The notes beneath the pieces are model-generated. The model was not told where the DNA came from, made no database searches, and worked only from the letters and a program-made list of their open reading frames with translations. From a virus, in the IMG/VR virus record IMGVR_UViG_3300031749_000031, positions 1 through 25,951 of that record: a stretch of DNA of 25,951 bases. One strand, given 5' to 3'. Shown here piece by piece: positions 1,072 through 22,443 of this stretch (position 1 is the stretch's first letter; each line of letters begins with the position of its first letter). Made by a program: the position numbers and the translations under genes.

Positions 1072-1080
1072 AGAGGAAAT

Positions 1081-1176
1081 ATGGCTCGCATCGGCATCAT
1101 GACCTGCTCGAATGACCTGGAGGAAAAAAATGCTCCTGACCGTGAGAGAAGTCGCAAAAAAACTTGCAATCTCTGA
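1081..1176 (+). CDS. 31-codon ORF between dnaN and the HTH gene, doubtful
   Basis: This short frame starts nine bases after the dnaN stop, with AGAGGAAAT just before its ATG. It encodes MARIGIMTCSN followed by an acidic and basic tail that overlaps the next gene in another frame. The first eleven residues resemble the N-terminus of CGGC-domain proteins as I remember them, and the resemblance ends abruptly. It could be a truncated remnant, a leader peptide coupling dnaN to the next gene, or chance. Confidence 0.2.
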   Translation: MARIGIMTCSNDLEEKNAPDRERSRKKTCNL

Positions 1177-1450
1177 AAAGACGGTATATAAACATTGGCA
1201 CCTGCTGGGAGGTTTCTATATTCCTGGCACAAAATGTCTGAGATTCGAGGAGGATGGCATCCGTGACCGTCTACAGAGGGCACAAAGGGACATACCGCTA
1301 TCACTTCATGAAAGACGGCAAGCGGTACACCAAGAGCGGCTTCCCGACCAAGAAGGCCGCGCGGGACGCAGAGGCCGACCACCGAAAAAGTCTACAGACA
1401 GCCGGGAGGAGCGCGCCAGAAACCTTGGCTTTAAGCTCCCTGATGTTTGA
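1130..1450 (+). CDS. Excisionase/AlpA-like helix-turn-helix protein
   Basis: The product is 106 residues. Its N-terminal 50 or so residues have the MerR/excisionase-like layout: LTVREVAKKLAISEKTVYKHW, then a short wing region (GGFYIPGTKCLRFEEDGI). Proteins of this type bend att-site DNA to favour excision, or regulate the integrase promoter. The start is the ATG preceded by GGAGG six bases upstream; an upstream in-frame ATG at 1112 lacks such a site. The C-terminal 45 residues are highly charged and low in complexity and overlap the integrase gene in another frame for almost 190 bases, so they may simply be run-on until the first stop. The position directly before int supports a role in recombination control. 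The HTH call is fairly good; the xis role is inferred. Confidence 0.65.
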   Translation: MLLTVREVAKKLAISEKTVYKHWHLLGGFYIPGTKCLRFEEDGIRDRLQRAQRDIPLSLHERRQAVHQERLPDQEGRAGRRGRPPKKSTDSREERARNLGFKLPDV

Positions 1451-3646: not shown

Positions 3647-3906
3647 TTATTCCTCCCGTATTCTTTCATGTCGGCACGCAGGTCCTCGATTGTTTTTTCC
3701 AATGTCGTGATCCGCTGGTCGTCCCTGGCGTTTCGTTCCCGCATGATAGTCATGTTGTGATTGAGGTTTGCTACCCCCTGGTTCAGCCGATCAATCGATT
3801 TATCCAGCCCGTTGAGGGTGTAAGTGCCAGCCCCCAGGAGCAATGCGATGATCAGCTTCGCCACCCAATCTTGCCACGGCGCCCCGATGCCATATCTCTT
3901 CGTCAT
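3643..3906 (-). CDS. Membrane-anchored coiled-coil protein, i-spanin candidate
   Basis: The product is 87 residues. One membrane segment (about WVAKLIIALLLGAGTYTL, residues 15-32) is followed by a heptad-rich region (LDKSIDRLNQGVANLNHNM and onward to EKTIEDLRADMKEYG). An N-terminal anchor with a long periplasmic coiled coil is the plan of Rz-type inner-membrane spanins. The ATG overlaps the stop of the giant protein gene as ATGA. It precedes the holin-like gene. A hemolysin XhlA-like protein has the reverse order, so it fits less well. Confidence 0.5.
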   Translation of the reverse strand: MTKRYGIGAPWQDWVAKLIIALLLGAGTYTLNGLDKSIDRLNQGVANLNHNMTIMRERNARDDQRITTLEKTIEDLRADMKEYGRNK

Positions 3907-6900
3907 TTCCTCCTCTCTTTTTCGGAATTTTTCACCACCTCTTCGAGGTAGAGATTGCGCTTTTGAATCCACAACTCAAGCAGATCGCGCTTCAAGATTG
4001 GTAAATTGTTCCACGCCTCGCTCTTCATTATCTTGTAGATGGGCTTGGAGAATTCCTTGTCGTGCGCCAGGGTGGCGGCATACTTTCGGGTGGTTTCCAG
4101 GTCTGGCATATAGATGATGTCCAGCATCTCGCGACGGTAGCTCTGAACCACCTTTTCCGCCTTGGTCAGGTATTTGTACTCCTGGTTGTCAGGGGAATTT
4201 TCAAGCTCATCGGCATAGCCAGTCCTGTAAGTGCGATCCATCTCGCGGATGGTGCGCCGTGCTTCGTTGGCGTTTTTGACCATGTCATAGAACATGGTTT
4301 CATATTTGGTGTGACGGGAAGGTTCCTGGCGGTAGAAGGATGCAATTCCTGGGTAGTCCTCCACCCGCAGGGCCGGGACATCGTCGAAGAACATCCCGTC
4401 AGCGATCTGCAACCCAGTTGCCGCCCAGCTATTGAAGAACCCCCGGAGAAGGGCCTCCAGACGGGCCGGGGAAATCTGTAGGCCTTTTGGCAGTTGGCGG
4501 ATGCCCTTCTCCCCCACCCACCGCAGAGTCCTGCTGTTGTAGGGCCCACTCCTGGCCCACGGTTCCAGTTGCTGCATGTCGGGGGTTTCAATGGGGCGGT
4601 TGAAAAACGACAGGTTGTTGCTGTACTGGTCAAGGAGTATCTGCCCCCCAGCCGGGAGCACATCGTATCTTAACATCTGCCAAACAAGCCGAAGCATATT
4701 GGCACTCCACTCCACCGGCTTGCCCTCCAAGAACCCTTCCATGGTGCGCTCCGCCATGCTCCCCATAATGCCCACCTCCCATGGCTTAGGTAGTCGGAAG
4801 TGGTGGTAAAGGTCTTCTGGGTTGCTGGAGGGAAGACTGCCAGTTTGGATCATGGTGGTCAGGGCTTCCTTGGTAGGGATGAATAGGTGCCAATAGGAGT
4901 CCTTGTCCCAATCCTCCAGGCGTTGATACAAGGGATTATCCCGGTTGTGCAGGTAGATGATGGTGGAAGCCGCCGCCAAAGCCGCAACCTTGGCGGCGAC
5001 AACGGCACGATTGGTCTGGGTGGTCAGCCCACGGTAGACCCTGTCGATCCCCTCGATGCCAGCCTTAAGGAAGGGCACAGTGTCATAGAGGAACCCAAGG
5101 TATGCCTGATCGCCACGCAGGGCAAAGTCGGTGCTGATCTCCCGGCTTTCCAGAGCCGCGGTGGAGGACTTTAGGCCCTGCTTGATCCCCCGCTGGAACT
5201 CGCCAAGCCTGGTGCCGACCTCCACCACTTCTCCAACTTGGCTCAAAAAGGTAAACATCTTGGCCGGGGTGTCGATGACCATCTTCCCAACGATACCCCG
5301 TTGCCGGTAGAATTTGTCCAAGTCCCTGGTGGAGTTGCGGGTTTCCTCGTAGATCGACGCAAACCCTCCACCATTGGCCAGCCACTCATGGTAATAGGGG
5401 TCTTCGGTAAGGCGCGACACAATGCCCCTGACAGAGTCAACGTAGGGCTTGTGCCCCAGCTTCGACATGGTCAAGGCCATCATGGGGTCACGCACAAAGT
5501 TCCGTATCATAAACCCCAGGCTATTGGTGATGGTGCCCCGGATCACCTTGAACGGCACCGACAGGACTCTCTTCACAATGTCCTGCCTGATGGGCCGCGG
5601 CAGGGCCTGGAGGGCCCGGAACAGGAGGGGGTCTGCCACTTCGTAATACCCGGCCTTGCCGTCACGCATGACGGCAATCACGTTTTCGCCATGAGGTTCC
5701 TGGCCGGTCTGCCAGAACTTCACGAAGGGTTCAATGGCAGCAAAGTGGGAATCCACCAAATCCTCGATCTGGGCGTACTCTTCAGCCCCGATCATCTCCT
5801 TGAGATTCTTGGCAAAATTCCTCTTTAGTTGCTCCCGCTCAATGCTTACGGACTTTATGTCTGTGGGGATTTTGGCAAGGAAGCGGGCCGACCCCTGCGA
5901 CTCCATAATCTCATCCACCACCTGTCTCCGGGCATGGTTCATCACCGCGGTGCGGAGCAGGAGGGTGGAATTCTTGAAGATGTTTTCAATGGGGTTGCCG
6001 ATGTTGGAAGTCCCGCCAAACAGGCGTTTGATTGGCTTAAAAATTCCCTTGCCCTTGCCGCCGGACCCCAACTGCTTGTCGGCCCTATAGAAGGGGATGT
6101 AGACCCCGTTGTCGTAGAGCTTCCTGGTTTCCGGGTTGATCACCCCGGCATCCTGGGCGAAGTCCAGCATCTGTTTGTTGAACTTGTTCCAGTTGTCGAA
6201 GACCTCCCTGAATACCGGGGTTTCCAGGGCCAGACCGGCCTTAATCTCCGCGTTGGTAAAGAGGTTTTCCCGGCCCTCGGCCTTGAGTTTCTCTGCCCTC
6301 CGGGCGACAGCATAACTGCCCCAGTTGGCAACGTCGTCTCTGACAGGCTCAAAGATCTGCTTAAGCCCCCACGGCTTGTATTTGGGGTTGGACTGCAACT
6401 CGATCTTCCCGTCTGGCTTGACAGTCTGGAGGACAGAGGGGTTGCCGTCCTTATCCAGAAATACGATGCGCCCACCTGGCAAACGCTTCGGGGCCCCGAT
6501 CTCCACCATGCCCTTCATGACCTTGCCCAAACCCCTGGTGAGCCGTGCGGTTTCGTACATACCCCCAGGTTTGGTGCTCCCCTTCAAGGTTGTCTCAGCC
6601 ACGGCGATGCCCCACAGATCGTCGAGAACCGACTGCCGGAACTTGTCACTGTAGGAGTTGAGGAAGTCGTTTACATCTTCCTGGTAGCCCTGCTTGGAGC
6701 GCATCCGGGTGAGGGCATCCTGTTCATACCACTCGGTCATGCTCTTCTGCGCTTCCCTGAGGGCCTTCCCGTGGGGCGACTTATCCAGGTAAGCCTCAAA
6801 CCTGGAGTACATCATGGGGGCCCTGGCCAGGGCCTCTTTGGGTTGGGTCATCCACAGGCGCACGAATTCGGCCCCACCCTCGTGGATCTTCCTATCATCG

Positions 6901-9344
6901 TAAGACAGGGCCCGCACCTCTTGGGTGACGTTGCGGGGCACCCCCTTGCCGATGTAGAGGCCGGTAAAGGCAGGGTCGCGGTCTTGCAGCAGGTGGGCAA
7001 GCTCGTGGGAGGTGACCTCCAGGTCAGACATCTTCTTGACCCTGACCTCTTCCTTCTTGGGCCGGTAGAACCCCAGGCGTTTACTGCCCCTCACCCTCCC
7101 CTGGTATAAGGGCACCCCGAAGTGCTTCAGGAGGGGTTTCAAGATAGACTCCCTGGTCTTGGGCGGGGGAAGATTTTGCGCCGCCTCACTCACCGCGACG
7201 GGGTTGTAGACATCAACAATCATGCCCTGGTAGTTTGCGCCGGGGGCATTTTGCGGGGGCTGGACTTCTGGCAGTTGGAGGGCCCCAATCATGCCATCCT
7301 CACCTAATGCTCCCCGAGTGCCGCCACCGGCATCCTCCAGGGCAGACCGAGTCTCATTGAGCTTAGGATCAAACTCAGCCCTGGCGATAGTCCCCTGCTT
7401 GCCCTCGGAATCGACCATGTCCTCCGGCTGGTACTTGGTTTCCGGCAAAACCTCAGGGGTCATCACCCCACCACCGGCAACGGCTTCACCAGACGGCGCA
7501 GGAGGGCCGATTTTGTCTTGCAAGGGGTTTTGTGCCGCCTGCCCACCGGCAACCTCGTCTTGTGCTTGGCCTCGCACAACCTCATGTGAAGTTTTTGGCT
7601 GTTCGCTACCATCCAAAATCGCCCTGGCGGCATCCAGGTTTTCCTTGGCAACCTCCTTGTGTTCAGCGACAAACTTCTTCCAGCGGTTGTCTATGTACCT
7701 CTGAAACTGCTCCTCGGTCATGTTCGGCTTACCAGAGGTCAGGGCATGAAGGCCGAAACCCGTCAGGAAGCTCACCGCCAGCGCGCCGGGGTCGGTGTCG
7801 CCCCCCACTAGGGCATGAGTAGCGGCGAAAGCACCGCCGGTGCCGACAGACTCCAATGCCTTGGTGAGGTAGGGGCTGTTGACCAGCTTGTCATAGGGCA
7901 GGGACTGCGCCACAGTGAACAGGGCCGCAGTGGGGACGGACTTGATCACCGCACCCTGGACATCCTTCATGGTGCCGCCCTCACCGGCAGTGCGCAGAGC
8001 GTCGGTAGTGGAGAAGGTCAGTAGGTTGCTCCCAAACCGCTGGAGGGTGGTGGCCATGGGCAAGGGAGCCCCCAGTTTTCCCATAATCCCGCCGGGGAGC
8101 ATATAACTTGCCAGGCCACCAAGCAGACCACCAAGGTATTGATTGATGGGGCTGGACTCCTGTATTAGCTTGTCCGGGGAACCCAACTCCTTGAGCTTCC
8201 CGGTTGCGGCAGTGAGGGGGTGGATGGCGGCACGGTCGTCGCCGGTGGCAAGCTGGACCGGGAGATTGAGGACCCCCTCCAGCGCCCGGGCGAAGCCATG
8301 CACCACATCGAGGATTGGCCGGTTGGCGTTGGCGGCAAACCTGTTGAGGGTGTTCAGCACCCCCGGTTCTGCCAGTTCCTGGGGGGTGGGGGCATTAGCG
8401 GCTTGCACTTCTTCCGGCGTGGCGGCAGAGATGGTCGGGGGTTTCTGGTCCCCCGCAGAAATCTCGGCATACCCCGGCTGGCCTGGGAAGGGCCGTGGGG
8501 TGAAGGGCTTCGGCTCGGCATACTCGGGCGGCGCACCCAGGCCCTGCATCACCTGGACTTGCCGAAAGGAATCCTTGATAGCATCAAACACCGCGGCACC
8601 GTCGGGTTGAGCCGGGACAGTGTCTTGCGGAGGGTTCACGAAGTCGGCAATGGTTTGGTCTGTGGCCCCCATCGCCACATCCCCAGGCTCGGCAGACTGG
8701 GGCTGATATCCTGGAATGTCAAACACCTCCGCGTCTTGATAATTAGGGATGTCAAACACCCCACTCTGCTCATCACTGGCTTTATAGCCAGGAATATCAA
8801 ACACTTCAGCCTGTCTCGGTGGAACTTCTGCGGCATGGGCCTGGGAGGGGCCAACCAGTTTGCCAATGGCGGCAAGCACCCCGCCCTCGGACTCACCCTT
8901 GTAAAAGGGGTTTGCGGCCCGTGCGTTGTATCCCAAGGTCTTGATATACTTGGGGGTAATCTCCTTCCACAGGATGCCCTTGCCAGCCGATTTTGAGGCG
9001 ACCATCAGCCTACCGTTCTCCGGGTTGATCATGGTCATCTCGGCATGGTTGGGGCCGAACTCCCGCCCGTAGTCGTTTTCCCCACGGTCATAGGCAATAA
9101 CCGTTCCCGGCCCCAGGGCCTTGAGGATCTCCGGGGTAATCTTGTCCTTGGACAGGACGGGCACCCCGTACTTCTCACCAAGGAAGTTTGGGATGCCCAC
9201 CCCCAGGTTTTCCTCCGGCAACAGGTGTTCGAATCCAGCCTCGGCCAGGTAGGCATTCATTTGTCGGGTGACGTACTGGCCGCAGTTATCACCGATCCTC
9301 AGAACACAGTTGCTTTTGTAGTTCGGGATATCGAACTGTTCCAT
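3903..9344 (-). CDS. Giant virion/ejection protein with Cys-peptidase-like and zinc-peptidase domains
   Basis: The product is 1813 residues. Residues 10-145 look like an NlpC/P60- or CHAP-like peptidase, with Cys21 in DNCGQYV and His100 in GPNHAEM; such domains cut peptidoglycan during DNA injection. A linker (about 180-340) holds three FDIP(G/N)Y repeats, and a fourth copy lies at residues 4-9. Residues 400-540 have several glycine-rich hydrophobic stretches. A zincin motif HELAH lies at 780-784, followed by HEGGAEF at 821-827. The remaining 950 residues are mostly helical and resemble, from memory, the large polyvalent-protein-associated regions of phage giants (for example MIRNFVRDPMMALTMSKLG). 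Its ATG overlaps the upstream stop as TAATG. The place between two internal-protein candidates and the lysis genes suits a protein ejected into the host envelope. Peptidase fold assignments are motif-based. Confidence 0.8.
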   Translation of the reverse strand: MEQFDIPNYKSNCVLRIGDNCGQYVTRQMNAYLAEAGFEHLLPEENLGVGIPNFLGEKYGVPVLSKDKITPEILKALGPGTVIAYDRGENDYGREFGPNHAEMTMINPENGRLMVASKSAGKGILWKEITPKYIKTLGYNARAANPFYKGESEGGVLAAIGKLVGPSQAHAAEVPPRQAEVFDIPGYKASDEQSGVFDIPNYQDAEVFDIPGYQPQSAEPGDVAMGATDQTIADFVNPPQDTVPAQPDGAAVFDAIKDSFRQVQVMQGLGAPPEYAEPKPFTPRPFPGQPGYAEISAGDQKPPTISAATPEEVQAANAPTPQELAEPGVLNTLNRFAANANRPILDVVHGFARALEGVLNLPVQLATGDDRAAIHPLTAATGKLKELGSPDKLIQESSPINQYLGGLLGGLASYMLPGGIMGKLGAPLPMATTLQRFGSNLLTFSTTDALRTAGEGGTMKDVQGAVIKSVPTAALFTVAQSLPYDKLVNSPYLTKALESVGTGGAFAATHALVGGDTDPGALAVSFLTGFGLHALTSGKPNMTEEQFQRYIDNRWKKFVAEHKEVAKENLDAARAILDGSEQPKTSHEVVRGQAQDEVAGGQAAQNPLQDKIGPPAPSGEAVAGGGVMTPEVLPETKYQPEDMVDSEGKQGTIARAEFDPKLNETRSALEDAGGGTRGALGEDGMIGALQLPEVQPPQNAPGANYQGMIVDVYNPVAVSEAAQNLPPPKTRESILKPLLKHFGVPLYQGRVRGSKRLGFYRPKKEEVRVKKMSDLEVTSHELAHLLQDRDPAFTGLYIGKGVPRNVTQEVRALSYDDRKIHEGGAEFVRLWMTQPKEALARAPMMYSRFEAYLDKSPHGKALREAQKSMTEWYEQDALTRMRSKQGYQEDVNDFLNSYSDKFRQSVLDDLWGIAVAETTLKGSTKPGGMYETARLTRGLGKVMKGMVEIGAPKRLPGGRIVFLDKDGNPSVLQTVKPDGKIELQSNPKYKPWGLKQIFEPVRDDVANWGSYAVARRAEKLKAEGRENLFTNAEIKAGLALETPVFREVFDNWNKFNKQMLDFAQDAGVINPETRKLYDNGVYIPFYRADKQLGSGGKGKGIFKPIKRLFGGTSNIGNPIENIFKNSTLLLRTAVMNHARRQVVDEIMESQGSARFLAKIPTDIKSVSIEREQLKRNFAKNLKEMIGAEEYAQIEDLVDSHFAAIEPFVKFWQTGQEPHGENVIAVMRDGKAGYYEVADPLLFRALQALPRPIRQDIVKRVLSVPFKVIRGTITNSLGFMIRNFVRDPMMALTMSKLGHKPYVDSVRGIVSRLTEDPYYHEWLANGGGFASIYEETRNSTRDLDKFYRQRGIVGKMVIDTPAKMFTFLSQVGEVVEVGTRLGEFQRGIKQGLKSSTAALESREISTDFALRGDQAYLGFLYDTVPFLKAGIEGIDRVYRGLTTQTNRAVVAAKVAALAAASTIIYLHNRDNPLYQRLEDWDKDSYWHLFIPTKEALTTMIQTGSLPSSNPEDLYHHFRLPKPWEVGIMGSMAERTMEGFLEGKPVEWSANMLRLVWQMLRYDVLPAGGQILLDQYSNNLSFFNRPIETPDMQQLEPWARSGPYNSRTLRWVGEKGIRQLPKGLQISPARLEALLRGFFNSWAATGLQIADGMFFDDVPALRVEDYPGIASFYRQEPSRHTKYETMFYDMVKNANEARRTIREMDRTYRTGYADELENSPDNQEYKYLTKAEKVVQSYRREMLDIIYMPDLETTRKYAATLAHDKEFSKPIYKIMKSEAWNNLPILKRDLLELWIQKRNLYLEEVVKNSEKERRK
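8706..8804 (-). repeat. Tandem-like FDIP(G/N)Y coding repeats in giant protein
   Basis: Residues 181-213 of the giant protein contain VFDIPGY, VFDIPNY and VFDIPGY, spaced 15 and 11 residues apart. The protein also begins MEQFDIPNY. The repeated DNA is similar but not identical, and the hexapeptide is kept while the spacers vary, which suggests selection on a short linear motif. Confidence 0.7.
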
Positions 9345-10243
9345 TATTGCCCCGCGTACCTTCCCTTCTTCTGGCCGGTTTGGGGATCGATCACATAAAG
9401 CCCGTCAGGGAACCGACCAACAGCGACACCGTTGACCATGACAGCCTTTCCAGGTGCGAGCTTGGAAAGGTCTACCCCCCCCCCGGCCTGCCCAGCCGCC
9501 ATGGTCTTTAAGATGACTTCCTTGTTTTCCTTGATCTTCTGTTCCTTGTACGTCGCGTCGCGCTGATCCCAGCGGGGGTCACTCTTGGAGAGCTCGATGG
9601 CCTTGCCGAGCGCAAAGCGATCCAGGTCGCCGCCATTGTTGTAGAACTTTTTGTTGAGCTTTTCTAGATTTTCCATGGTGGGCTTGATGCCGAAGTCAAT
9701 CGCCATCAGACGCAGATCTTTGTACCGGCCAGAGGGCTGGTTGGCTTGCCCCATGAGGAATTTTTTGTACTCGGCATCCAGGGCAAGTCGACGCTCGGCT
9801 TGGTCGGCCTTGATCTTTTCGGCCTCGGTCATCGGGGCCTGGGGTATCTGGAAAGGTTCGCGCCCATCGCCAGGGACAACATAGTCGCCGGGGCGGTATC
9901 TTTTGGGGCCAAGCGGCACCTCGGCAACCTTCTCGGAGCCACGGAAAATGTAGGAACCTGGGGGCCCAACCTTTATCTTGTCCTGCTCCATTGCCTTTTG
10001 GGCCAGAACTTGGTTCAGCAACCCCACCCCTTCCGGGGTCTTCATGGCCTGGACATACTGATCCAGGGCCTCGGGGGTCAGCTTCCCGGCAATCAGGTCC
10101 TTCAACGCCTGCCCTATCGTGCCCTGGTCTTCAATCTTGGCTTGGTTCTCCCATCTGTCAGACAGAGCCTTGCCAAGAATCCCTATGGCATCGCCAACCC
10201 CGGCAAGTGGATTGGGACGGAAATCATAAACCACCTGTGCCAT
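9344..10243 (-). CDS. Internal virion / ejection protein candidate
   Basis: This is a 299-residue soluble, largely helical protein with an N-terminal segment (VVYDFRPNPLAGVGDAIGIL), charged helices in the middle, and a compact C-terminus that looks like a small beta motif (GKAVMVNGVAVGRFPDGLYV). I do not recognise a named family. A perfect AAGGAGGT precedes its ATG. It lies directly upstream of the giant protein and directly downstream of another candidate internal protein, which is where podophages keep DNA-ejection proteins. A run of ten G residues inside the gene (9475-9484 on the opposite strand) encodes Gly-Gly-Gly and is a likely slippage spot. Confidence 0.6.
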   Translation of the reverse strand: MAQVVYDFRPNPLAGVGDAIGILGKALSDRWENQAKIEDQGTIGQALKDLIAGKLTPEALDQYVQAMKTPEGVGLLNQVLAQKAMEQDKIKVGPPGSYIFRGSEKVAEVPLGPKRYRPGDYVVPGDGREPFQIPQAPMTEAEKIKADQAERRLALDAEYKKFLMGQANQPSGRYKDLRLMAIDFGIKPTMENLEKLNKKFYNNGGDLDRFALGKAIELSKSDPRWDQRDATYKEQKIKENKEVILKTMAAGQAGGGVDLSKLAPGKAVMVNGVAVGRFPDGLYVIDPQTGQKKGRYAGQ

Positions 10244-10252
10244 GCTACCTCC

Positions 10253-11038
10253 TTACAAATACTTTTTGATGTACGCGCTGCCCAACATCGCCCCGCCCTT
10301 GAGAATGTCCCCAAGAATACCGGGGGTCTGACGCTGGGTGATCACGTTCTCATAAGCGCGAGTACCCAAGGAGGTGCCAAACAGTCCGGCCAGCTTGGCA
10401 AGTTGGGAGTTCGGCAGGGCCTGTAGCCAATCCTGATATTTCATTGCCAAATCGTTAGCCCTATCCTGATACTCGAACATAGCCGGTGCCTGTAGAACAT
10501 TTGCCAGAACCTGGGCCATGTTAGACCCCATTCCGGCGGCCTGCATTGCCCTGTTATCATAGGCATTTTTGTCGTTGAAGAGCACCTGAGCCAGAGTGGC
10601 ATTCAAGTTAGTGTGCAAGTTCTTGGCCGCCTCGGCTTGAGCGTTGAGGAAGGCCCCTGAGTCAATTGCGTCCAGGCCACCATAGGTGGTGGCAATGGCC
10701 TTCATGGTGTCGTCGAAGCCCTCCAGGGCCGGTTGCTTGATGGCATCGGCCCAGTAGTTAAGGGCCGCGTCTTTACTGTATGGCTGCATGGCCCCCAGGA
10801 GGGTGTTTGTTGCCCCCTGCCAAAGCGGATTATTGGGCATATCCTGGACATCAGCGATCCATTCCCTGGTCAGGGGTGTGATACCTGGGGTGAATTCCCC
10901 ATAATACTGCGGCCCCCAGGCCCCGATCTGATTCTGTAGGTAGCCGGACAGGGCGTCAAGATTGCTCATCTGGGCACCAGTGAGCAAAGGCATTCGTTCG
11001 GCACTGGTTTTAGAACTCCCAAACAGGATGCTGCCCAT
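10253..11038 (-). CDS. Internal virion / ejection protein candidate
   Basis: The product is 261 residues, rich in Ala, Gln, Asn and Leu. It begins MGSILFGSSKTSAERMPLL and has long helical segments (for example AFLNAQAEAAKNLHTNLNA). It ends in a glycine- and alanine-rich, mildly hydrophobic stretch (DILKGGAMLGSAYIKKYL). Short, helical, Ala/Gln-rich proteins with such a tail are common among the small ejection proteins of podophages. GGAGGTC precedes the ATG. No family is recognised with certainty; the call rests on composition and on the adjacent giant protein. Confidence 0.55.
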   Translation of the reverse strand: MGSILFGSSKTSAERMPLLTGAQMSNLDALSGYLQNQIGAWGPQYYGEFTPGITPLTREWIADVQDMPNNPLWQGATNTLLGAMQPYSKDAALNYWADAIKQPALEGFDDTMKAIATTYGGLDAIDSGAFLNAQAEAAKNLHTNLNATLAQVLFNDKNAYDNRAMQAAGMGSNMAQVLANVLQAPAMFEYQDRANDLAMKYQDWLQALPNSQLAKLAGLFGTSLGTRAYENVITQRQTPGILGDILKGGAMLGSAYIKKYL

Positions 11039-11039
11039 C

Positions 11040-11558
11040 TTAGACCTCCATCAGTTTGACGTGAGATTCACGAAATCCCATCCTTCTCCAGGCCCTGTCC
11101 CGGTTGGTGAGAAACCAGATCTTTCTGGCCCCCAGCTTTTTCTGCATCTTGCGGAGGGCAGGAACCACCAAGTTTTTGACCACAGCGTGGTCGGCCCCCT
11201 GGATGCTCTTGTCCAGAGTGCAGAAATTTACAATCATGGTGTGGGTCAGGACTACGTAGGTCGACCACACGGCCCCAACGATCTGGTGTTCCTTGTTGAC
11301 AATGGCCCACAGGTAGCTGGTGGGCTGGCCACGAAAACCGTTCCAAAGCTGGATCAAATCATCAATCTCATACTCCCCGGCCCCCCTGAGTTGCTCCAGG
11401 AGTGGCCAGGGGATGATCTCAATGTCATCCACCGGGATGATTTTGAGACCCTTAATACCCCCAGGCTTTGAGGGTGCGGTATGCTTGCTCTGCCCTCTTG
11501 CCACAGTCGGTTCGGTATTGGAGATTTGCTCCGACTCTAAGTTTTTTGCAGGTTCCAT
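11040..11558 (-). CDS. GNAT-like acetyltransferase
   Basis: This encodes about 172 residues. After a poorly conserved 35-residue lead come GLKIIPVDDIEIIPWP, a helical region, LWAIVNKEHQIVGAVWSTYV (the usual beta4 area), a segment with VKNLVVPALRKMQKKLGARKIWFL (helix and beta5), and WRRMGFRESH near the end, resembling the common GF motif of N-acetyltransferases. The acetyl-CoA loop (R/QxxGxG/A) is not obvious, so activity is uncertain. The ATG at 11558 is one choice; it makes the gene overlap the ATP-grasp gene by 107 bases, and a later non-ATG start would reduce that. The close pairing with a ligase suggests joint action on one substrate. It may equally be a structural relic. Confidence 0.55.
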   Translation of the reverse strand: MEPAKNLESEQISNTEPTVARGQSKHTAPSKPGGIKGLKIIPVDDIEIIPWPLLEQLRGAGEYEIDDLIQLWNGFRGQPTSYLWAIVNKEHQIVGAVWSTYVVLTHTMIVNFCTLDKSIQGADHAVVKNLVVPALRKMQKKLGARKIWFLTNRDRAWRRMGFRESHVKLMEV

Positions 11559-12777
11559 AAACTTTCCCCACTGCCTCTCCAATTTGTTTTCCCACCCCGG
11601 TCACCACCCCCAGGATGCCATCAGCCCCGTTACAGGCTAAGTACCCGGAATCATCCTGGTAAACGTCCTCCCACCAAACATTTTGAAAATCGCCAATGCG
11701 GTGCTTGATCGGCACATCCTTGGCATAATCCTCAAGTAGCTGGGGATCGGAGTAAGGGTAGGGTGGAATTGAAATCCTAACGCTGGCGGCCACTCCAGTG
11801 AACCGGCCAGCAAAGTTATCCAGAAAGAAGTCCCCCAGCTTGCCATCCAACATGGACAGCAGGAGATAGAGGGCATCCCAGCCAAAACGGGGAGTCCACT
11901 CTAAAAAATATGGCCGGTGGTCTTTGCTACTCACAATGCAGTTGACATCGACAGGCCCCACATATCCACACTCTTTCAGCCTGGGGGCCAGTTTCACCAA
12001 GTGCTGAAAGATCTGGTTCTGGTGAAACACCGGCACCACCACGTTGTTTGCCGACCCCACCCCCGGCCCCAGGTGGCCGGTAAGAAACTTCTTGTCTTCA
12101 AAGGTGTGGTTGTAGTGCAAGAAGGTGTCGCCGTTCCACCACGCTTCACTGGAGACCTCCACCCCGTCAACCTTGGCCTGGAGTATATAATCAATCTTGT
12201 CACCCCCCACCCGGACAGGCAGTTCGTGTTCGAACTTGTCGGCAAGCTCCCCGGGGTAGGACTCCACATAGGTCAGGTCGAGATCGAGATTCCCGTGAGG
12301 TTTAAACACCCACAGACGATCAGAGTTCTTGCCAAGAAATTTGGCACCTTTTCGTAGAGAGTCAAATTCATGGGTCTCGGCTACCTCGAAGCCACAATCC
12401 TTGGCTACCTCACTGCCAAGCATTCTGTCCAACTCAATTTTGGCAGTCCAGGCGGATGCGCCGATTACCCTGGTATAGGGCCGGATCGCATTGCCAACCA
12501 CCCCGAAAACATCCTCGCTCTTGGTCGGAAGTTTGAAGGTCTTCAACAGGGCAAGGTCTTGCTTAGTGCGCCGGTTTGGCCGCGCCCCGTCAAACACCAC
12601 CACATCGGCCCGGGCGGCAGTCTTTTTGAGCAACGAAAGTGGGATTGACGAGACAATACCCCGGTAATTGTTTTTATATCCGCTGATATGGAGGTAGACG
12701 CTTACAGGGTAACCTTCCTGTTGGATGCGCCACGCCAGGGGGAGCGATTCTCCGGAGGCTGAAATAAAGAGAATCAT
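11452..12777 (-). CDS. PurD-like ATP-grasp ligase in the tail module
   Basis: A 441-residue protein with the plan of phosphoribosylamine-glycine ligase. It has a Rossmann-like start (MILFISASGESLPLAWRI), an ATP-grasp core with a lysine in WVFKP (about 159), a VDGVEVSSE strand (about 204-211), HLGPGVGSAN in place of the GMG loop, and metal-binding residues in DVNC (about 278-280) and FLEWTPRFG (about 291-299). The PurD C-domain signature is present as VVTGVGKQIGEA and YRTDCGKRA. ATP-grasp enzymes join a carboxylate to an amine or thiol through an acylphosphate. The canonical PurD glycine-rich segments are changed, so the substrate may differ. It stands between a fibre gene and the GNAT-like gene, away from any nucleotide genes. 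Fold confidence is high; the reaction is unknown. Confidence 0.75.
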   Translation of the reverse strand: MILFISASGESLPLAWRIQQEGYPVSVYLHISGYKNNYRGIVSSIPLSLLKKTAARADVVVFDGARPNRRTKQDLALLKTFKLPTKSEDVFGVVGNAIRPYTRVIGASAWTAKIELDRMLGSEVAKDCGFEVAETHEFDSLRKGAKFLGKNSDRLWVFKPHGNLDLDLTYVESYPGELADKFEHELPVRVGGDKIDYILQAKVDGVEVSSEAWWNGDTFLHYNHTFEDKKFLTGHLGPGVGSANNVVVPVFHQNQIFQHLVKLAPRLKECGYVGPVDVNCIVSSKDHRPYFLEWTPRFGWDALYLLLSMLDGKLGDFFLDNFAGRFTGVAASVRISIPPYPYSDPQLLEDYAKDVPIKHRIGDFQNVWWEDVYQDDSGYLACNGADGILGVVTGVGKQIGEAVGKVYGTCKKLRVGANLQYRTDCGKRAEQAYRTLKAWGY

Positions 12778-12778
12778 A

Positions 12779-13534
12779 TTAGCCCAACTTGGTGATCCAC
12801 ACCTGTGTGAAGATATTGGCCCACGCTGCTGCTACGCCACCCCCAAGGGAGTTGGTGGTGGTTACGGCACCCTGGAGTACGAAGGTCTTTGTCGCAGTTA
12901 GCTTAATAATTTCGTCGAATTCTGAGAACGCAGAGGTGATATATGCCCTCACGGTGGTTCCGTAGATGTTTACCCCAACCTCGTTCTGCTGTACAGCCCC
13001 ATCAGTGACGTTGTAGAGCCTCGCCTGAGACGCGTCGGTGCCAATAAAATACACCTTCGCCCGAATGCGATACCTGCCCGCTCCCAGGGTGAACTGGTTG
13101 TTAGACAGGCTCACAATGCCATCGGGATCGTACAGTTTAGTATTGAGTGTCCGGGTCACCCAACTACCTGCGGTAAGGGAACCGCCGTTGACCCCCCCGG
13201 CAGTGGTGTGCTGTAGCAGAGCACGAGACTCTACCACCTTAGGCCCCTCTATCACCTGGGCACCGTTGTCACCATAAACCAAACGGTATTTGGGCGGAGT
13301 AACGGAAGTGTCTTTCCAGACAGAAAATTTTCCGTTTGCCGGGGTTGGGGCAGAAGTGCCCTCGCCATACTCAGGGTTGAGGTTGATCACCCCAGCTACA
13401 AACTCCAAGTGGTCTTTGAGGGCCGTGTAGAAGTCGTTCAGTGCTTCCCAAAGTTGCTCAGGTTCGCCACTCTTTATCTTGACCTCATCCAAGGGGAGGA
13501 TAAGGCCCTCGGGAACATGGTTGTATCCTTGCAT
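12779..13534 (-). CDS. Tail fibre/receptor-binding protein with C-terminal jelly-roll domain
   Basis: The product is 251 residues. The N-terminus (MQGYNHVPEGLILPLDEVKI) is followed by a helical stretch (EQLWEALNDFYTALKDHLEF) that could trimerise. A linker comes next, then from about residue 110 a beta-rich domain with TAGSWVTRTLNTKLYD, NNQFTLGAGRYRIRAKVYF and a repeated aromatic/glycine pattern. This resembles the C1q/TNF-like jelly-roll domains on phage tail proteins. The ATG at 13534 overlaps the preceding stop as TAATG; an upstream ATG in the same frame would run into the previous gene. A host-recognition role is inferred. Confidence 0.65.
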   Translation of the reverse strand: MQGYNHVPEGLILPLDEVKIKSGEPEQLWEALNDFYTALKDHLEFVAGVINLNPEYGEGTSAPTPANGKFSVWKDTSVTPPKYRLVYGDNGAQVIEGPKVVESRALLQHTTAGGVNGGSLTAGSWVTRTLNTKLYDPDGIVSLSNNQFTLGAGRYRIRAKVYFIGTDASQARLYNVTDGAVQQNEVGVNIYGTTVRAYITSAFSEFDEIIKLTATKTFVLQGAVTTTNSLGGGVAAAWANIFTQVWITKLG

Positions 13535-15348
13535 TAGTAGTAAATCTCCCCGGCTGGTGTGAACCACAGCATCATGGCATGGAGTTCAAACCGTTGGTTT
13601 GGGGCAAGATGGGACAACCTGACTCGATGGAAATTTGCGACTTCGCCGCAATACACCCGCACCCAAACCTTCTCGTCTGCGTTGCCGTCGCAAACGACGG
13701 TCTCGGTGTAATAGGGTGCGGTATTGTAGTCAATGGACAACTCGACCTTAAACGAAATATTGGGATCACGAGTCACCAGGAGGTCAACGTACCCGAGCCG
13801 CGCTCGCTGACCATCGGTAATGAAGGGGTTCATCCAACCGGTGGCGGCGGCGAACCCGATGGCGGCACCGTTGTCTGTGCCGTCTGTCTCGTCCATTTTC
13901 CAGATGTACCCGCTGGTATCCCCGAAGATTTGCAAGGGAAAACCCGCCTGGGCACTGCGCTCGTCCCAAACCCGTTCCCACTCATCCCAGGTAATCTCAC
14001 CGCATTCATCCCAGGAGATATCCGGGTCTTGAACCGAGTAATACCCCCAACAGGTGAAGCCGAAGTTCGCCTTGGAGTACGAGAAATCCTGGTAGTTGAT
14101 CAGCAATGTCTTGTTGTTGTAGGTGTAACCGGCTTCCGGGTAACTGATCAGAATAAGCCTAAACTCTTCATTCACCCCGGCATACGCCCGAGTAAGCAGT
14201 CCCTGATCGACCTCATACACAAAGTCGGGCACCTGGTCGCTAAGTGGGTAAACCTTATTGCCATCACACCCAATCAGGTTGGTGGGCCCAAGGGCGATGA
14301 TCTCGTCGCTCATGTCGACCACAGCCATCTGCGCCATGGCACCGTCCTGGATGGCCAGCCTCTGCCACCGAAAAGGCATCCGTGAGTCGCCAGTAAACTT
14401 GATCACCCAAATTGACCGTTCAAAAAACACAATGATATCGTTCCGCAAATACGCCGCACCGACGATAAACTCATGGGTGTCTGCGTCGGCATAGTCGTTG
14501 GGAGACCAAGTAGAAGGGTTGGCTGGGTTGCTCCACCTCATGCGCTGTGGCTGGAGGGTGCCCTTTTCCTGGGTGTGTAGGAGGATCAGGTACCCTTTAT
14601 GGGCAAAGACCATCTTGGCAAACCCAACGTCGTTGGGGTTGGTATCCAGATGGATATTGAAAGGGGAGAAGGTGACACCGTCGAAGGTGTAAAGTTGATC
14701 CTTACCGTTAGCGATGTAGGCAACATTCTGCCAGTTACAAACCCAAAAGAAGTCGCTCTCCCCGCCGCTGAACACGTCTGTCCCGCCGGTAATGTCCTTA
14801 AATAACCTATTGACATCGTCGTAGACGAAGACCCGTTTGGTGTCGAAGGCCATCAGCAACTCTGAACCACCGGCATTGACGTAGTTCCAGAGACCCATCA
14901 CCGGCAGGCCGGCGTAAAAATTGTAAGTTGCCAGGACAGCCGCACCGCTCTTGACCGCGGAGTTAAAGGTGACGCTGACCCCACCCGTGCTATAATTGAT
15001 GGTGCCGGTGCCATCACCCGTCAATACACCGTTACCGTTGTCGGTAACGGTCATCGTCACATTAGAAGTGTTCGAGGCATTGATGACCACACTACCTGGG
15101 GCAATGGGGGTCTTGACCAGGGTTTTGGTAAAGGTGGTCTGAGACCCGTTACCAGTACCGATATTTTCATTATTAACCAGGTGGGGCAGACGGGCAAACT
15201 GAGAGTACCCATTCCTTTTCCGCACAACCCCGCGGAAAAGGAAGGCATCAGTCAGTTCAGTCCAGGCATCCTTGGGGATCATCCAGGTAGGCATCCCCAA
15301 TTCGAGGCCAGTTTTATAGGGGGCGATCAGGAAGGGCTTGTAAGGCAT
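13534..15348 (-). CDS. Propeller-type tail protein (tail tube B / stabilisation-like)
   Basis: The product is 604 residues, starting MPYKPFLIAPYKTGLELGMP. Beta-rich repeats run through most of the protein (for example LLMAFDTKRVFVYDDVN, YIANGKDQLYTFDGV, IIALGPTNLIGCDGNKVY), which fits a beta-propeller tail component such as the P22 gp10 or T7 gp12 class. Residues about 62-145 form a separate inserted module (from GTGNGSQTTFTKTL through GTINYSTGGVSVTFN), an Ig-like beta domain common in phage baseplate and tail proteins. An acidic, Trp-rich part has repeated WDE motifs (ISWDECGEITWDEWERVWDE). The start with GGGGATTCC before it at 15348 is preferred to an upstream frame that overlaps the previous gene by much more. 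Family placement is by fold pattern. Confidence 0.65.
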   Translation of the reverse strand: MPYKPFLIAPYKTGLELGMPTWMIPKDAWTELTDAFLFRGVVRKRNGYSQFARLPHLVNNENIGTGNGSQTTFTKTLVKTPIAPGSVVINASNTSNVTMTVTDNGNGVLTGDGTGTINYSTGGVSVTFNSAVKSGAAVLATYNFYAGLPVMGLWNYVNAGGSELLMAFDTKRVFVYDDVNRLFKDITGGTDVFSGGESDFFWVCNWQNVAYIANGKDQLYTFDGVTFSPFNIHLDTNPNDVGFAKMVFAHKGYLILLHTQEKGTLQPQRMRWSNPANPSTWSPNDYADADTHEFIVGAAYLRNDIIVFFERSIWVIKFTGDSRMPFRWQRLAIQDGAMAQMAVVDMSDEIIALGPTNLIGCDGNKVYPLSDQVPDFVYEVDQGLLTRAYAGVNEEFRLILISYPEAGYTYNNKTLLINYQDFSYSKANFGFTCWGYYSVQDPDISWDECGEITWDEWERVWDERSAQAGFPLQIFGDTSGYIWKMDETDGTDNGAAIGFAAATGWMNPFITDGQRARLGYVDLLVTRDPNISFKVELSIDYNTAPYYTETVVCDGNADEKVWVRVYCGEVANFHRVRLSHLAPNQRFELHAMMLWFTPAGEIYY

Positions 15349-15637
15349 TGGAATCCCCGCCCAGCAGTTCCGGCATGGCGAGTGTAGCCAGAGTAGCAAA
15401 ACCCTTGGCAATCTCGTTGCGGGTTGACTCAATGGCCGCGGCGGGACGGTTGCTGGCCTTGATAACCTCGACCATGAGCTTTGGTAGGGCCTGAAAGATG
15501 CACTCGCCTACCGTTTTTTCCTCACCGCTATTGTTGCTCCAGGTCATGATAATCCAGCACGGGCACCCGTTTTTGCCGTTGTTCTCGGGGCACTCGCCTG
15601 TCTTGCCACAGGCAAAGGCCCCCCTAAAGTCTGCCAT
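15314..15637 (-). CDS. Cys-rich small phage protein of unknown function
   Basis: The product is 107 residues. The N-terminal third holds five cysteines (FACGKTGECPENNGKNGCPC, then VGEC), arranged like a small metal-binding knuckle. The rest is helical, with ASNRPAAAIESTRNEIAKGF. GGAGGGAG precedes the ATG. The gene sits between a collar-like tail protein and the propeller protein and overlaps the latter by 35 bases. It could be a minor tail factor or a small regulator. I do not recognise a family. Confidence 0.6.
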   Translation of the reverse strand: MADFRGAFACGKTGECPENNGKNGCPCWIIMTWSNNSGEEKTVGECIFQALPKLMVEVIKASNRPAAAIESTRNEIAKGFATLATLAMPELLGGDSNALQALPDRPL

Positions 15638-15655: not shown

Positions 15656-16276
15656 TTAGTCTTTGGCCCCGATGACAACATCGATATAGGCTGGTCGCCA
15701 CGTACCATTTGATGCTGCTGTACTGCTGATATTATGACTGTGCCATCCTGTGCCGATACCGGTGACGGCGGTAGTGGAACCGGGGGCGAAGGTTGCAGTG
15801 CTTGATACCCAAACACTCTGTGACTCCGTACTAGCCGAGCTACTCACGCTGATCCCAGAGATTGTCCAGCTACCCCCTGACCCACCACCGGTTCCAGAGA
15901 CGACCCGGAGTACCTTGTCGTTTACCGAGGTGTCCTGCGTCCAGCCGGTGGGAACGCTGGCCTGGAAAAATGCCATCTTGGTGCCAGCCGGGATCAGGGT
16001 GCGCCAAGCCCCATTGCTATACCAATTAAGCAGATTGTTGGCGATGGCCAGCCGCCCCTCGTACCCTGAGGGGTTACTGTTGCCCACCGGGACTTTGTGG
16101 ATTCCAGCATCGACCCCCTCAGTTCCGGGGAAGATGTGCTCCCTGTTCAAGGCATCGGCCAGGGCCACCCAGTTATCCCGGATTTCCTCGTCGGACAGCC
16201 TGATCTTCTGACTACCAGCCGGTTTGGCGGCATCCCAGGTCAGGGCTACTCGTACCAAGGCGCGTTTAATGCTCAT
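15656..16276 (-). CDS. Tail collar/fibre-type protein
   Basis: The product is 206 residues. The N-terminal part resembles an attachment segment (MSIKRALVRVALTWDAAK). The middle includes WRTLIPAGTKMAFFQASVPTGW, the usual tail-collar signature in which a PTGW motif follows a short beta strand. The C-terminal half is Ser/Gly/Thr-rich (SGTGGGSGGSWTISG) and ends with WHSHNISS and WRPAYIDVVIGAKD. This HSH plus WRPxYxxVxxA ending is typical of collar-like fibre tips. Its ATG overlaps the upstream stop as TAATG. A role in adsorption is inferred. Confidence 0.7.
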   Translation of the reverse strand: MSIKRALVRVALTWDAAKPAGSQKIRLSDEEIRDNWVALADALNREHIFPGTEGVDAGIHKVPVGNSNPSGYEGRLAIANNLLNWYSNGAWRTLIPAGTKMAFFQASVPTGWTQDTSVNDKVLRVVSGTGGGSGGSWTISGISVSSSASTESQSVWVSSTATFAPGSTTAVTGIGTGWHSHNISSTAASNGTWRPAYIDVVIGAKD

Positions 16277-16923
16277 TACCATTTCCCCACTGGTTCCTGA
16301 TTGATCAGAGAAAGTATGGTCTCCCGGTTGGCAAAGTTTAAGAGGGTGGTGTAGACGTTTGAGATTGTTTGGGCGGCTTCAAAATCGCCCCCGTCCAGCA
16401 GGATGTCAATCGCAGTACCGAAGGCAATCAACCTGCCGAACCTCCCGAAACCGTAGGTCTGGAACTCAGCATCGTCCACCCCATACGGTACCAGGGGGTA
16501 AATCGGGATGACGATCTCCTCGCCGCCAACAGCCGGTGGCATCCAAGTAAAACCTGTGCCATAGAAGAGGATGTCAGTTGGGGTGGAATTCTCGTAGGAC
16601 TGACCCTGAGGGAACCTCTCATAGAAGAAGTCCCGATCATGGTGCAAGGTCATCGGCACACCGTCACAGGTGGGGTTCCCACGGATGTAGAGAATGCTTC
16701 CAATGGGAGATTCATCCTGGGTTGTCTGCCCCGCAACAGTGGTGATCGTGATGAAAAAGACCTCATTGATCCGGTGGCCGGGAAGCTCCACGGCCATGGT
16801 ATTTTTGAGGTACTCGTTGATCGCCTTGTCCAGGTCGGCATCACTGAGGTTGCCGGTAGTTTTTCTCCCTGTCAACTTCCTTACCCGATCCCTGACATCC
16901 TGCTGAGTCCAGATTTGAGGCAT
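16276..16923 (-). CDS. Head-tail connector / head completion candidate
   Basis: The product is 215 residues. The first 45 residues form a helical pair (MPQIWTQQDVRDRVRKLTGR, then LSDADLDKAINEYLKNTM) typical of adaptor proteins that dock on the portal. A beta-rich middle follows (VFFITITTVAGQT, SILYIRGNP) and a final helical segment (FEAAQTISNVYTTLLNFANRE). This mixed layout and the place just after the head genes fit the gp11-like or gp4-like adaptor class of podophages. No named family is certain. Confidence 0.5.
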   Translation of the reverse strand: MPQIWTQQDVRDRVRKLTGRKTTGNLSDADLDKAINEYLKNTMAVELPGHRINEVFFITITTVAGQTTQDESPIGSILYIRGNPTCDGVPMTLHHDRDFFYERFPQGQSYENSTPTDILFYGTGFTWMPPAVGGEEIVIPIYPLVPYGVDDAEFQTYGFGRFGRLIAFGTAIDILLDGGDFEAAQTISNVYTTLLNFANRETILSLINQEPVGKW

Positions 16924-20195: not shown

Positions 20196-22193
20196 TTACC
20201 TCTTCGTAATGCCCCGGCGTCGCTGGTCAGGCTTTGTGGCAGAATGGAAGGTACTCAGGGCCTTTAGAATCTCGGCAATGCGCTTCGCGTCCAGACCACT
20301 TATCTCGGCCTTGATCTTCTCCATCTCCCCGATTGCCTTCACCCTGTCGAGCAGGGCCTGGGCGATCTCCGTCTCCACCTTCTGGTCGTTTAGCTTGGCC
20401 GAAGAAATCCTGGCCTGGGCCTCGGCCATCGTCAAATACTGGACAACCTGTTGTGCCTCAAGCTGGGCCTTGGCCATTTCGGCATTGGCCTGTTCCTCCC
20501 GCGCCACCACTTCCTTCAGCCGATTCTTGCCCTCCAGTGGTGCTGTGTCGATAATCTCACTCCAGGGGATCGGCGCACCCTGCGCCTTATACTGGAGCAG
20601 TTGGAAGTGGTACATCTCCCGCTGGCTGTCGCTCAAGACCCCCTCGGTGATGTTGACGTTCATCCGGGGAAAAGTCTTGTCGAAGAAGCTGGGGGTCGGT
20701 TCCTCGTTGATGATTTGGGCAATCTTGGACGATTGGTAGTGCTTCTGAATCGCGGCAATCAGCTTGTAGCCCAACATCCGCTTAGATTCCCGGTAGTTAT
20801 CAAAAATGTCCTGCAACACCGTGAGACCCGCCGCCTGCCGCAACTTCGACAGCACCCCAGCCACCTCGGTCTGTGGCGAGGAGGGGTCGCCCAGGAGTTC
20901 GTCTGTCACCATGCCGGAATCGAGAAGCATCTTGTCAGCAAGCTCCAGCACCGCAAACAGGCCCTGCGGGATCTGTGGCATCTGGCGGTCTTGGACAGAA
21001 CTCGGATCTTTACCGGCCCTGATCCACAACGGCAACCCGTGGCCCACCTGATAGGCTTGTTCAGGGTTTACCAGGGCATCCTCGGTCAACTTGAGACCAC
21101 CGTAGGCCAATTTGTCGAGAATGTCCTCCAGCTTGGAATACCGCTGGTTGACGATCACCTGGGGGTCGCGCATGGCCCTGATCAGCCCCTGCAACTTCTC
21201 CTCGTGCTTGTCATGCTCCGGGTCAAAATACGCCCATACCGGCACGAAGGGGTAGTCGTCGATCCCCAGGATATCCGGCCCATCGTACATCAACTCCTCC
21301 TCCACCAGGACAATCTGACGCATGGTGGGGATGGGCCGGGAAATGACGGTCATCAACTCAGACATCGGTAGGTTAGTTTTGGGGTCGATGGACTGCATCC
21401 ACTCAGCAAGCTGGCGCCGTGTGCCTCGCCATACAAAATGATCCCCGGTTTGACGATCCACCACCACCTTGCGCTGTTTGGTGTCCCAACGATAGAAGGT
21501 GTCATAGCGCAGAAGGTCTTTCCCATCAATGCCACGCACCCTCGGTGCATAGATGAACTTGCCATCGTTGAACCCCTTGGGGCGGAGCTTGTCAATCTCA
21601 TTGGCCCTGTCTGGCAGGAGTTGTTTACAGGCCCCAGGGGATAAGAACTTGCGCTCGATAATGTATCCGCAATCCTCCAGGGACAGCTTGGTTGTCGAGG
21701 GGTCAATCACAAACTCGTTGTGGGCCTTCCTGGCAAAGCGGAGGTCGCCGGAGATGAGGTCGTCCTTGTAGTCAACGTAGATCTCCACCAAGTTGAGACC
21801 AACCTTCAAGGCACCCGAGAAAGCCTGAGACATAGTGAGGTAGCCGCCATACCGCTTCGACATCTCGAACTGTAGAACGGCCGACATCTGGCTGGCAGTC
21901 TTGGCCTCCAACTCACTCAGTTGGTTCATGGCCAGGGCAATGGGGTCTGCCTTTATGGCCAGCCGGTGCTTCCTCTGAAAGCCCTCGACCAGCTTAATGA
22001 CACGCCTCACCTTGTTGATGGTCTTCAACTCCCGGCGTGTGTTTTGAGCAAACTGCCTGTCAGATGCACTCCACTGGTCGCCCACGAAATACTTCATATC
22101 AGTCCTGGCTTCCAGCATCCACCGGCCCCAGTGCTGAATGGCATTGTCGTAGGCTTGATTGAATTCCTGAACGATTTCCTTGTTACTCGACAA
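20196..22193 (-). CDS. Portal protein, P22-like
   Basis: The product is 665 residues. It has the portal opening typical of the P22-like class: FNQAYDNAIQHWGRW, KYFVGDQWSASDR, then NKVRRVIKLVEGFQRKHR and later YVDYKDDLISGDLRF. The C-terminal third is a long Gln/Ala/Glu-rich helix, as in the P22 barrel region. The start is a TTG at 22193, five bases after the upstream stop, with AAGGGG upstream; an in-frame ATG at 22250 would overlap the previous gene and add an unrelated segment. It forms the dodecameric DNA channel and docks with TerL and the neck proteins. Confidence 0.9.
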   Translation of the reverse strand: MSSNKEIVQEFNQAYDNAIQHWGRWMLEARTDMKYFVGDQWSASDRQFAQNTRRELKTINKVRRVIKLVEGFQRKHRLAIKADPIALAMNQLSELEAKTASQMSAVLQFEMSKRYGGYLTMSQAFSGALKVGLNLVEIYVDYKDDLISGDLRFARKAHNEFVIDPSTTKLSLEDCGYIIERKFLSPGACKQLLPDRANEIDKLRPKGFNDGKFIYAPRVRGIDGKDLLRYDTFYRWDTKQRKVVVDRQTGDHFVWRGTRRQLAEWMQSIDPKTNLPMSELMTVISRPIPTMRQIVLVEEELMYDGPDILGIDDYPFVPVWAYFDPEHDKHEEKLQGLIRAMRDPQVIVNQRYSKLEDILDKLAYGGLKLTEDALVNPEQAYQVGHGLPLWIRAGKDPSSVQDRQMPQIPQGLFAVLELADKMLLDSGMVTDELLGDPSSPQTEVAGVLSKLRQAAGLTVLQDIFDNYRESKRMLGYKLIAAIQKHYQSSKIAQIINEEPTPSFFDKTFPRMNVNITEGVLSDSQREMYHFQLLQYKAQGAPIPWSEIIDTAPLEGKNRLKEVVAREEQANAEMAKAQLEAQQVVQYLTMAEAQARISSAKLNDQKVETEIAQALLDRVKAIGEMEKIKAEISGLDAKRIAEILKALSTFHSATKPDQRRRGITKR

Positions 22194-22197
22194 TGGC

Positions 22198-22443
22198 CTA
22201 ACCCCTTGGAAGAGCGTGAAGCCGATACGAGACAACCTGCCCCGTGTCAACCATCACCTCAAGTCCCGCGTAGACATCCCGTCGCAAATGCCGGGAGGTC
22301 ATCGTAGACAGGTGCATTTTTCGGTGGTCGAATGGGTTGATCCAGTACACAAAAACTCCCCTCTCCGGTAACATTCCCGAAACCATCGCAACCGGCATGG
22401 GGGTAAGGGAAGGAACATCTTGCTGGGGGTGGCCATTGCTCAT
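22198..22443 (-). CDS. Small hypothetical protein between TerL and portal
   Basis: The product is 81 residues, MSNGHPQQDVPSLTPMPVAM, with a patterned middle (MLPERGVFVYWINPFDHRKM). It ends in EVMVDTGQVVSYRLHALPRG. GAAGGAG stands ten bases before the ATG. A different minus-strand frame across the same region, starting by GTG at 22516, lacks such a site. The gene runs into the portal start with a four-base gap. Function unknown; a packaging or head accessory is plausible from its place. Confidence 0.6.
   Translation of the reverse strand: MSNGHPQQDVPSLTPMPVAMVSGMLPERGVFVYWINPFDHRKMHLSTMTSRHLRRDVYAGLEVMVDTGQVVSYRLHALPRG

Follow-up and report, generated by a model that had tools for sequence, protein, structure and literature searches.

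A gene in the virion module of a virus contig probably encodes an ATP-grasp carboxylate-amine ligase that is derived from PurD but forms a family of its own, in which the active site is rebuilt and the substrate is a different one. PurD is normally a housekeeping enzyme with one job. The same replacements in the active site are found in relatives from phages and from cells, and the ATP-binding core is conserved in all of them.

The ligase gene and its neighbours in the window

The record is a virus contig of 25,951 bases, and this whole stretch of DNA is called the window in the following. The ligase open reading frame (ORF) lies on the minus strand, opens with ATG at 12777, and closes after 441 codons with a TAA that ends at 11452; the TAA of the upstream tail fibre-like gene (12781-12779) ends 1 nt before the ligase ATG. 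The features of the module that are needed here are as follows.

3903..9344, minus strand: LPD38 'polyvalent' protein, 1813 aa, candidate injected protein (PF18857, 3.7e-22)
10253..11038, minus strand: 261-aa protein, placed where other ligase-bearing phages have the gp7-like ejection protein (position only)
11040..11432 (ORF 11040-11582), minus strand: GNAT-like acetyltransferase candidate directly downstream of the ligase (low-confidence model)
11452..12777, minus strand: PurD-like ATP-grasp ligase (P0001), 441 aa (sequence, HMM, and fold model)
12779..13567, minus strand: tail fibre-like protein, 262 aa (phrog_24210, 8.7e-13)
13534..15432, minus strand: head-closure Hc3/stabilisation-like virion protein, 632 aa (phrog_3287, 8.9e-31; phrog_578, 6.7e-10)
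15656..16282, minus strand: 208-aa protein with homologues in the ligase-bearing phages L059 and L103 (cluster c59, HMM 7e-65)
16276..16923, minus strand: 215-aa head-tail gene, adaptor-like by position, with a homologue in L266
17296..18252, minus strand: N4-gp56 family major capsid protein (TIGR04387, 286 bits; phrog_1357, 1e-60)
20196..22250, minus strand: P22-like portal protein (PF16510, 1.7e-59)

The large terminase of the module is phrog_2, and the 632-aa gene, the next one upstream after the fibre gene, is Hc3/stabilisation-like rather than a fibre gene. An earlier note on this DNA had placed the ligase inside the tail gene module of an N4-gp56 phage; the capsid match and the fibre, Hc3-like, and portal genes around the ligase agree with this. 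The same note had put the ligase between a fibre gene and a GNAT-like gene. The fibre gene stands by its phrog_24210 match. The downstream ORF, which probably starts near GTG 11432 rather than at 11582, has no Pfam, NCBIfam, or PHROG match; profile comparison leaves the GNAT identity unsupported, and it is the low-confidence model (pLDDT 56), with acetyltransferases among the Foldseek PDB matches listed, that points to GNAT. The 261-aa protein that follows had no HMM match.

The ligase ORF is a real gene, since its dN/dS against the copy in L001, a 97-99% identical virus, is about 0.08 (of 16 differing codons, 13 are synonymous and 3 are not). For other pairs of family members the ratio was 0.04-0.10, and the family is under purifying selection. 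Whether the near relatives of the window phage conserve this locus was examined on this one near-identical contig, as L266, the next relative, ends before the locus; the search for closer relatives gave only near-identical contigs and one truncated contig. Two more IMG/VR contigs of the window virus (L273 and L274, with 99% identical portals) contain only the terminase-portal end.

LPD38 is a phage-type polyvalent domain (PMC5512222). The 1813-aa protein has a possible peptidase-like stretch and is likely injected together with the DNA. The left end of the window (1-2273) has a tyrosine integrase, an HTH-like ORF, and a dnaN gene truncated where the contig begins; it may be a provirus boundary, or the clamp may be encoded by the phage. 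A search of the window for att-type direct repeats of at least 20 bp found none; a tRNA-Tyr (gta) gene near the right end (25238-25321, minus strand) is a possible integration-related site.

Fold and active site

The AlphaFold model of the ligase, built from 53 aligned proteins, has a full-length PurD fold (mean pLDDT 83.9, pTM 0.86), in which only residues 65-97, an insertion, are poorly modelled. In the Foldseek comparison with the PDB, ranks 1-15 are all GAR synthetases (E 1e-24 to 1e-21, TM 0.63-0.72), followed by PurK and biotin carboxylases; the fold thus resembles PurD more closely than PurK. D-Ala-D-Ala ligases and RimK peptide ligases are absent among the best 50 PDB matches, and BFVD gave no comparable viral protein, its best matches aligning at a TM of about 0.4. 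A GAR synthetase was also the best PDB match of the window ligase with phmmer, and the profile match had E=3.5e-25. Judged as a member of the ATP-grasp superfamily, the protein has both the fold and the conserved ATP-binding Lys and Glu residues. The earlier note had named two findings that would speak against its proposal, a model lacking the ATP-grasp fold and a closest match to a canonical PurD with an intact active site; structure prediction gave an ATP-grasp fold of the PurD type, and no canonical PurD with an intact site came out as the closest match. Its statement that the PurD-like signatures are kept holds for the fold, which is retained in the N-terminal, ATP-grasp, and C-terminal parts, but not for the N-terminal sequence signature.

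To locate the differences from PurD, we compared residues in 14 cellular proteins, 23 phage proteins, and the window ligase with those in 9 canonical PurDs, using the numbering of Salmonella PurD. Four replacements (K105R, E187Q, D214E, and N288T) are fixed in both the cellular and the phage rows, and the window has all four, as R118, Q200, E227, and T295. In place of PurD D293, the window ligase and almost every phage protein have W, and the cellular proteins mainly Y. The signature R[LF]GDPEx[EQIM] (PS00184, E. coli 290-298) is lost, the window having RFGWDALY with W300 for the RFGDPE Asp; the phage and cellular relatives in the comparison also have another residue instead of this Asp. The N-terminal GGREHA loop is gone (G9 and R11, present in 9/9 PurDs, are retained in neither the window nor the relatives), as is the PGN motif. 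The GPNTGGMG loop of PurD is TGE/DMG in the relatives and GPGVGSANN in the window, and PurD G229 is E or D in every cellular and phage row, whereas the window has S. The earlier note had remarked that the nucleotide-binding and substrate loops are altered, and the alignment confirms this. With the GGREHA loop and the RFGDPE signature, whose residues define GAR synthesis, exchanged for a different set of conserved residues, phosphoribosylamine and glycine are probably not the substrates.

These losses also bear on the reading that the protein is a functional GAR synthetase, an auxiliary metabolic gene boosting purine synthesis, which we regard as very improbable. The PurD fold and the weak PurD HMM matches are consistent with it, as is an ocean virus survey in which K11787, 'phosphoribosylamine-glycine ligase', was virus-enriched (PMC11360552); that 'GART' gene may or may not belong to the ligase family. 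However, the TIGR00877 scores of 40-112 bits are far from the cut-off of 288 bits: the window ligase has 39.9 bits (E=2e-10, residues 102-429) with weak Pfam GARS_A/GARS_C matches, and its phage and cellular relatives have 96-112 bits. Loss of the RFGDPE Asp was the criterion behind the non-GARS call for two haloarchaeal proteins (PMC3261824), and GGREHA is lost as well. As the earlier note had observed, no other purine genes are near: none was seen in the window, and PurM, PurN, PurH, and PurL probes had no match in 143 ligase loci (1.84 Mb). Canonical purD is also present in 10 of the 11 assemblies with phage-type copies, one of the ten being a contig-end fragment above the cut-off and several of the assemblies being MAGs. 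A true PurD was rejected on grounds of score, signatures, gene context, and the purD of the hosts. Several PurD records labelled 'phage' (MT837619, MT838306, and the CAKLQ, AGRM, and AFYI records) were rejected as family members because they are purine loci or bacterial contigs, and they served as canonical controls; the presence in the phage collection of bacterial purine genes on MT837619, MT838306, CAKLQH020000004, and AGRM01000005 indicates mislabelled or contaminant entries.

The ATP-site residues K145, E194, K216, E286, and R290 (PurD numbering) are unchanged across the family, and in the window K159, E207, K229, E293, and R297 are invariant across phages and cells. The window ligase also retains E115, G299, R422, and D424, and has gained D277; in PurD numbering, the C-terminal R416/D418 are among the residues kept. 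Gly40 is a new invariant of the family, and most of the re-tooling is common to the window. From ATP-grasp logic, Mg-ATP is predicted to bind between the two ATP-grasp lobes (K159, E207, K229, and E293). In ATP-grasp biochemistry, ATP activates a carboxylate, which is then attacked by an amine; if the ligase is catalytically active, as we infer, it would form an acyl phosphate from its carboxylate substrate before the attack of the amine.

The metal-ligand pair E-x-N is E-x-T in 54/54 viral rows, as well as in the 14 cellular rows, the 23 phage rows, and the window. N288T is not a selection artefact, because the patterns that found the 54 viral rows did not contain that motif. E-x-T at this place is unusual, but the E-x-N pair is common rather than universal in ATP-grasp enzymes, and PurT and PurK, which are active enzymes, appear to resemble the ligase in having no metal-ligand Asn at this position. 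The window copy has further changes: it has no TGEMGT loop (VGSANN instead) and no K166, both of which nearly all others keep, and in place of the two new N-domain Trp residues of the phage and cellular relatives it has L50 and R56. Of the features by which we define the family here as 'ExT', the window has R118/Q200/E227/T295 and lacks the TGEMG(T) loop and the N-domain Trp pair. Because of these losses, the window copy is an outlier and a divergent member of the family, whose activity is the least certain of all; this copy could be altered or inactive. For the family, it is unlikely that the PurD fold has lost catalysis and now serves in virion structure or assembly. Such a role would suit the loss of the metal-ligand Asn in every member, the missing TGEMGT loop and K166 of the window copy, and the location among structural genes, but not the five invariant residues K159, E207, K229, E293, and R297, nor the cellular members, which have no virion to build.

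Phage and cellular branches

A full-length relative with 24% identity to the window ligase is encoded in MW202796, a Manatee Spring phage genome. IMG/VR searches starting from this relative gave 49 loci, then 271, and then at least 575 stretches, IMG/VR being a fixed collection; bacterial genome contigs were scanned with short patterns. The carriers are mostly uncultured short-tailed phages, and prophages with the typical ligase arrangement are found in Paraburkholderia rhynchosiae, P. tropica, P. phenoliruptrix, and others.

The genes typically follow the order adaptor, stabilisation/Hc3, a GNAT, 2OG-hydroxylase-like or cupin-like gene, gp7-like ejection protein, coiled protein, large putative ejection protein, ligase, fibre, and lysozyme. 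Among the 97 loci having 8 kb upstream, the gp7-like ejection gene lies upstream of the ligase in 86 (57/65 after dereplication at 90%), and a GNAT, 2OG-hydroxylase-like, and/or cupin-like gene in 72 (46/65 after the same dereplication). According to HMM clusters, the large putative ejection protein, a label that is mostly positional, is directly upstream of the ligase in 38/97 loci. The upstream GNAT (42 loci) and cupin/adhesin-like (28 loci) genes never co-occur among the 97, where about 12 co-occurrences are expected by chance with relatedness uncorrected, and the count is still zero after dereplication at 60-90%; the 2OG-hydroxylase-like gene co-occurs with either of them. The 'ubiquitin' of MW202796 was considered as a partner of the ligase and rejected, since it is a CxxC-containing c12-type protein common in these phages and not ubiquitin.

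This position in phages favours something made or used during virion assembly, and the ligase, encoded in the virion module, would most likely act in the infected cell. It is also conceivable, if rather unlikely, that the ligase modifies host proteins, as other protein-modifying enzymes of phages do, and is either produced late or enters the cell together with the ejection proteins. The ligase often adjoins the large putative ejection protein, the window module contains the LPD38 polyvalent protein, and phage R2K ATP-grasp ligases have been proposed to modify host proteins (PMC4431377, PMC7824862); on the other hand, an export or packaging signal was not identified in the ligase, and a late gene position is odd for host take-over.

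In the trees, canonical PurD is split from all other sequences at 100/100. When cellular sequences are included, the window copy joins the cellular branch (100/95 and 97/88) on a long branch, and a tree constrained to place it in the phage clade is worse by 7 log units (AU p=0.044). A position of the window copy closer to the cellular than to the common phage branch is thus favoured by the trees, though not settled. The capsid of L096, the only one tested from the phage clade, gave no match to the N4-gp56 family, and the separate placement of the window copy fits the different capsid lineage of the window phage. Divergent and nearest to the cellular branch, the window copy may have its own substrate.

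The cellular branch was found in L150 (Ca. Uhrbacteria), where the gene is located among chromosomal genes with no phage genes nearby; the Uhrbacteria genome additionally has a canonical purD. Proteins of the L150 type (50-66% identical) occur in about 10-11 of 240 genomes of the same phylum. In the phylum of the Elusimicrobia MAG, 5 of 150 genomes have a cellular-branch protein, with scores of 441-641 bits where canonical PurD has roughly 70-115. A distant member is present in one genome of a Burkholderiales sample. The genes are stand-alone in the Patescibacteria and Elusimicrobia MAGs, with examples adjoining ribosomal-protein or housekeeping genes, and no conserved operon was found across these two groups. 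Methyltransferase or SAM-synthetase (metK) genes adjoin the ligase in some genomes. In the Burkholderiales contig L278 (7830-10072), a methyltransferase gene overlaps the ligase by 4 nt in a two-gene unit with no phage genes around; in L239 (Patescibacteria, 6238-8946), two tandem ligases about 55% identical to L150 are followed by a methyltransferase; and in L241 (Patescibacteria, 4215-11326), saccharopine dehydrogenase/homospermidine-synthase-like, PLP decarboxylase, and M29 peptidase genes lie near the ligase, making a polyamine or amino-acid link possible.

The cellular branch favours a substrate that is present in cells. One possible role is that of a small-molecule ligase, which would couple an amine metabolite (e.g., a polyamine or a cell-surface precursor) to a carboxylate such as an amino acid; phages would then have taken the gene from cells and would alter host chemistry late in infection. 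The stand-alone chromosomal genes of Patescibacteria and Elusimicrobia, the methyltransferase, metK, homospermidine-synthase-like, or decarboxylase genes near some copies, and the grouping of the window copy with the cellular branch are in line with this possibility. It is weakened by the lack of a conserved cellular operon and by the location of the phage gene in the virion module, apart from the metabolism genes of the opposite strand.

Possible targets and comparison with known systems

Our tentative guess at the target is a protein or peptide of the ejection or tail apparatus, a small molecule or a host molecule being almost as likely. It is likewise only possible that the gene belongs to a peptide- or protein-modifying system of the podophage virion module, in which the ligase, commonly with the GNAT, 2OG-hydroxylase-like, or cupin-like gene, would modify ejection or tail proteins, with a sister branch in cells. 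A purely phage-specific target is disfavoured because the cellular branch occurs without phage genes and the window copy is nearer to that branch. If the ligase does modify virion proteins, it would carry out an enzymatic step that is new to the assembly of podophages or to the ejection of their DNA. As Paraburkholderia prophages carry the gene, tests in cultured hosts become possible. Moreover, the family falls under every curated cut-off, so its members would be annotated as PurD, as hypothetical, or as purine auxiliary metabolic genes, an error that naming the family avoids.

The ligase resembles PurD (TIGR00877; PDB 2ip4, 1vkz, 5vev, and 1gso) in fold, length, domain order, the ATP-binding Lys/Glu core, and a C-terminal YRxDIG-type motif. 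It differs from PurD in the loss of GGREHA, PGN, and RFGDPE, in the replacements K105R, E187Q, D214E, N288T, and D293W, in a score 7-fold under the family cut-off, and in having no purine context. The haloarchaeal PurD-like proteins rrnAC0307 and Hlac_1553, in which the RFGDPE Asp is not conserved and the N-terminal P-loop is divergent, were judged not to be GARS (PMC3261824). Going by this description, they resemble the ligase in these two features; they are archaeal, with no phage context reported.

Other ligases of phages include the R2K clade of ATP-grasp enzymes (PMC4431377) and sets of an amidoligase and a GATase (Iyer et al. 2009, as cited in PMC10580990). As far as the accounts in these sources extend, they are like the ligase in their ATP-grasp or amide-ligase chemistry and in the proposed modification of peptides, the cell wall, or host proteins, and they are set apart by being described as other ATP-grasp or glutamine-synthetase-like families; no GATase partner gene was noticed near the ligase. 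The suggestion of the earlier note that the system is undescribed agrees with our searches, as PHROGs and PADLOC had no model for or match to the family, and no description of its phage or cellular members was found in the open-licence literature. ATP-grasp ligases in phages and haloarchaeal PurD-like proteins other than GARS were thus known already; what appears to be new is the PurD-like 'ExT' sister family shared by phages and cells.
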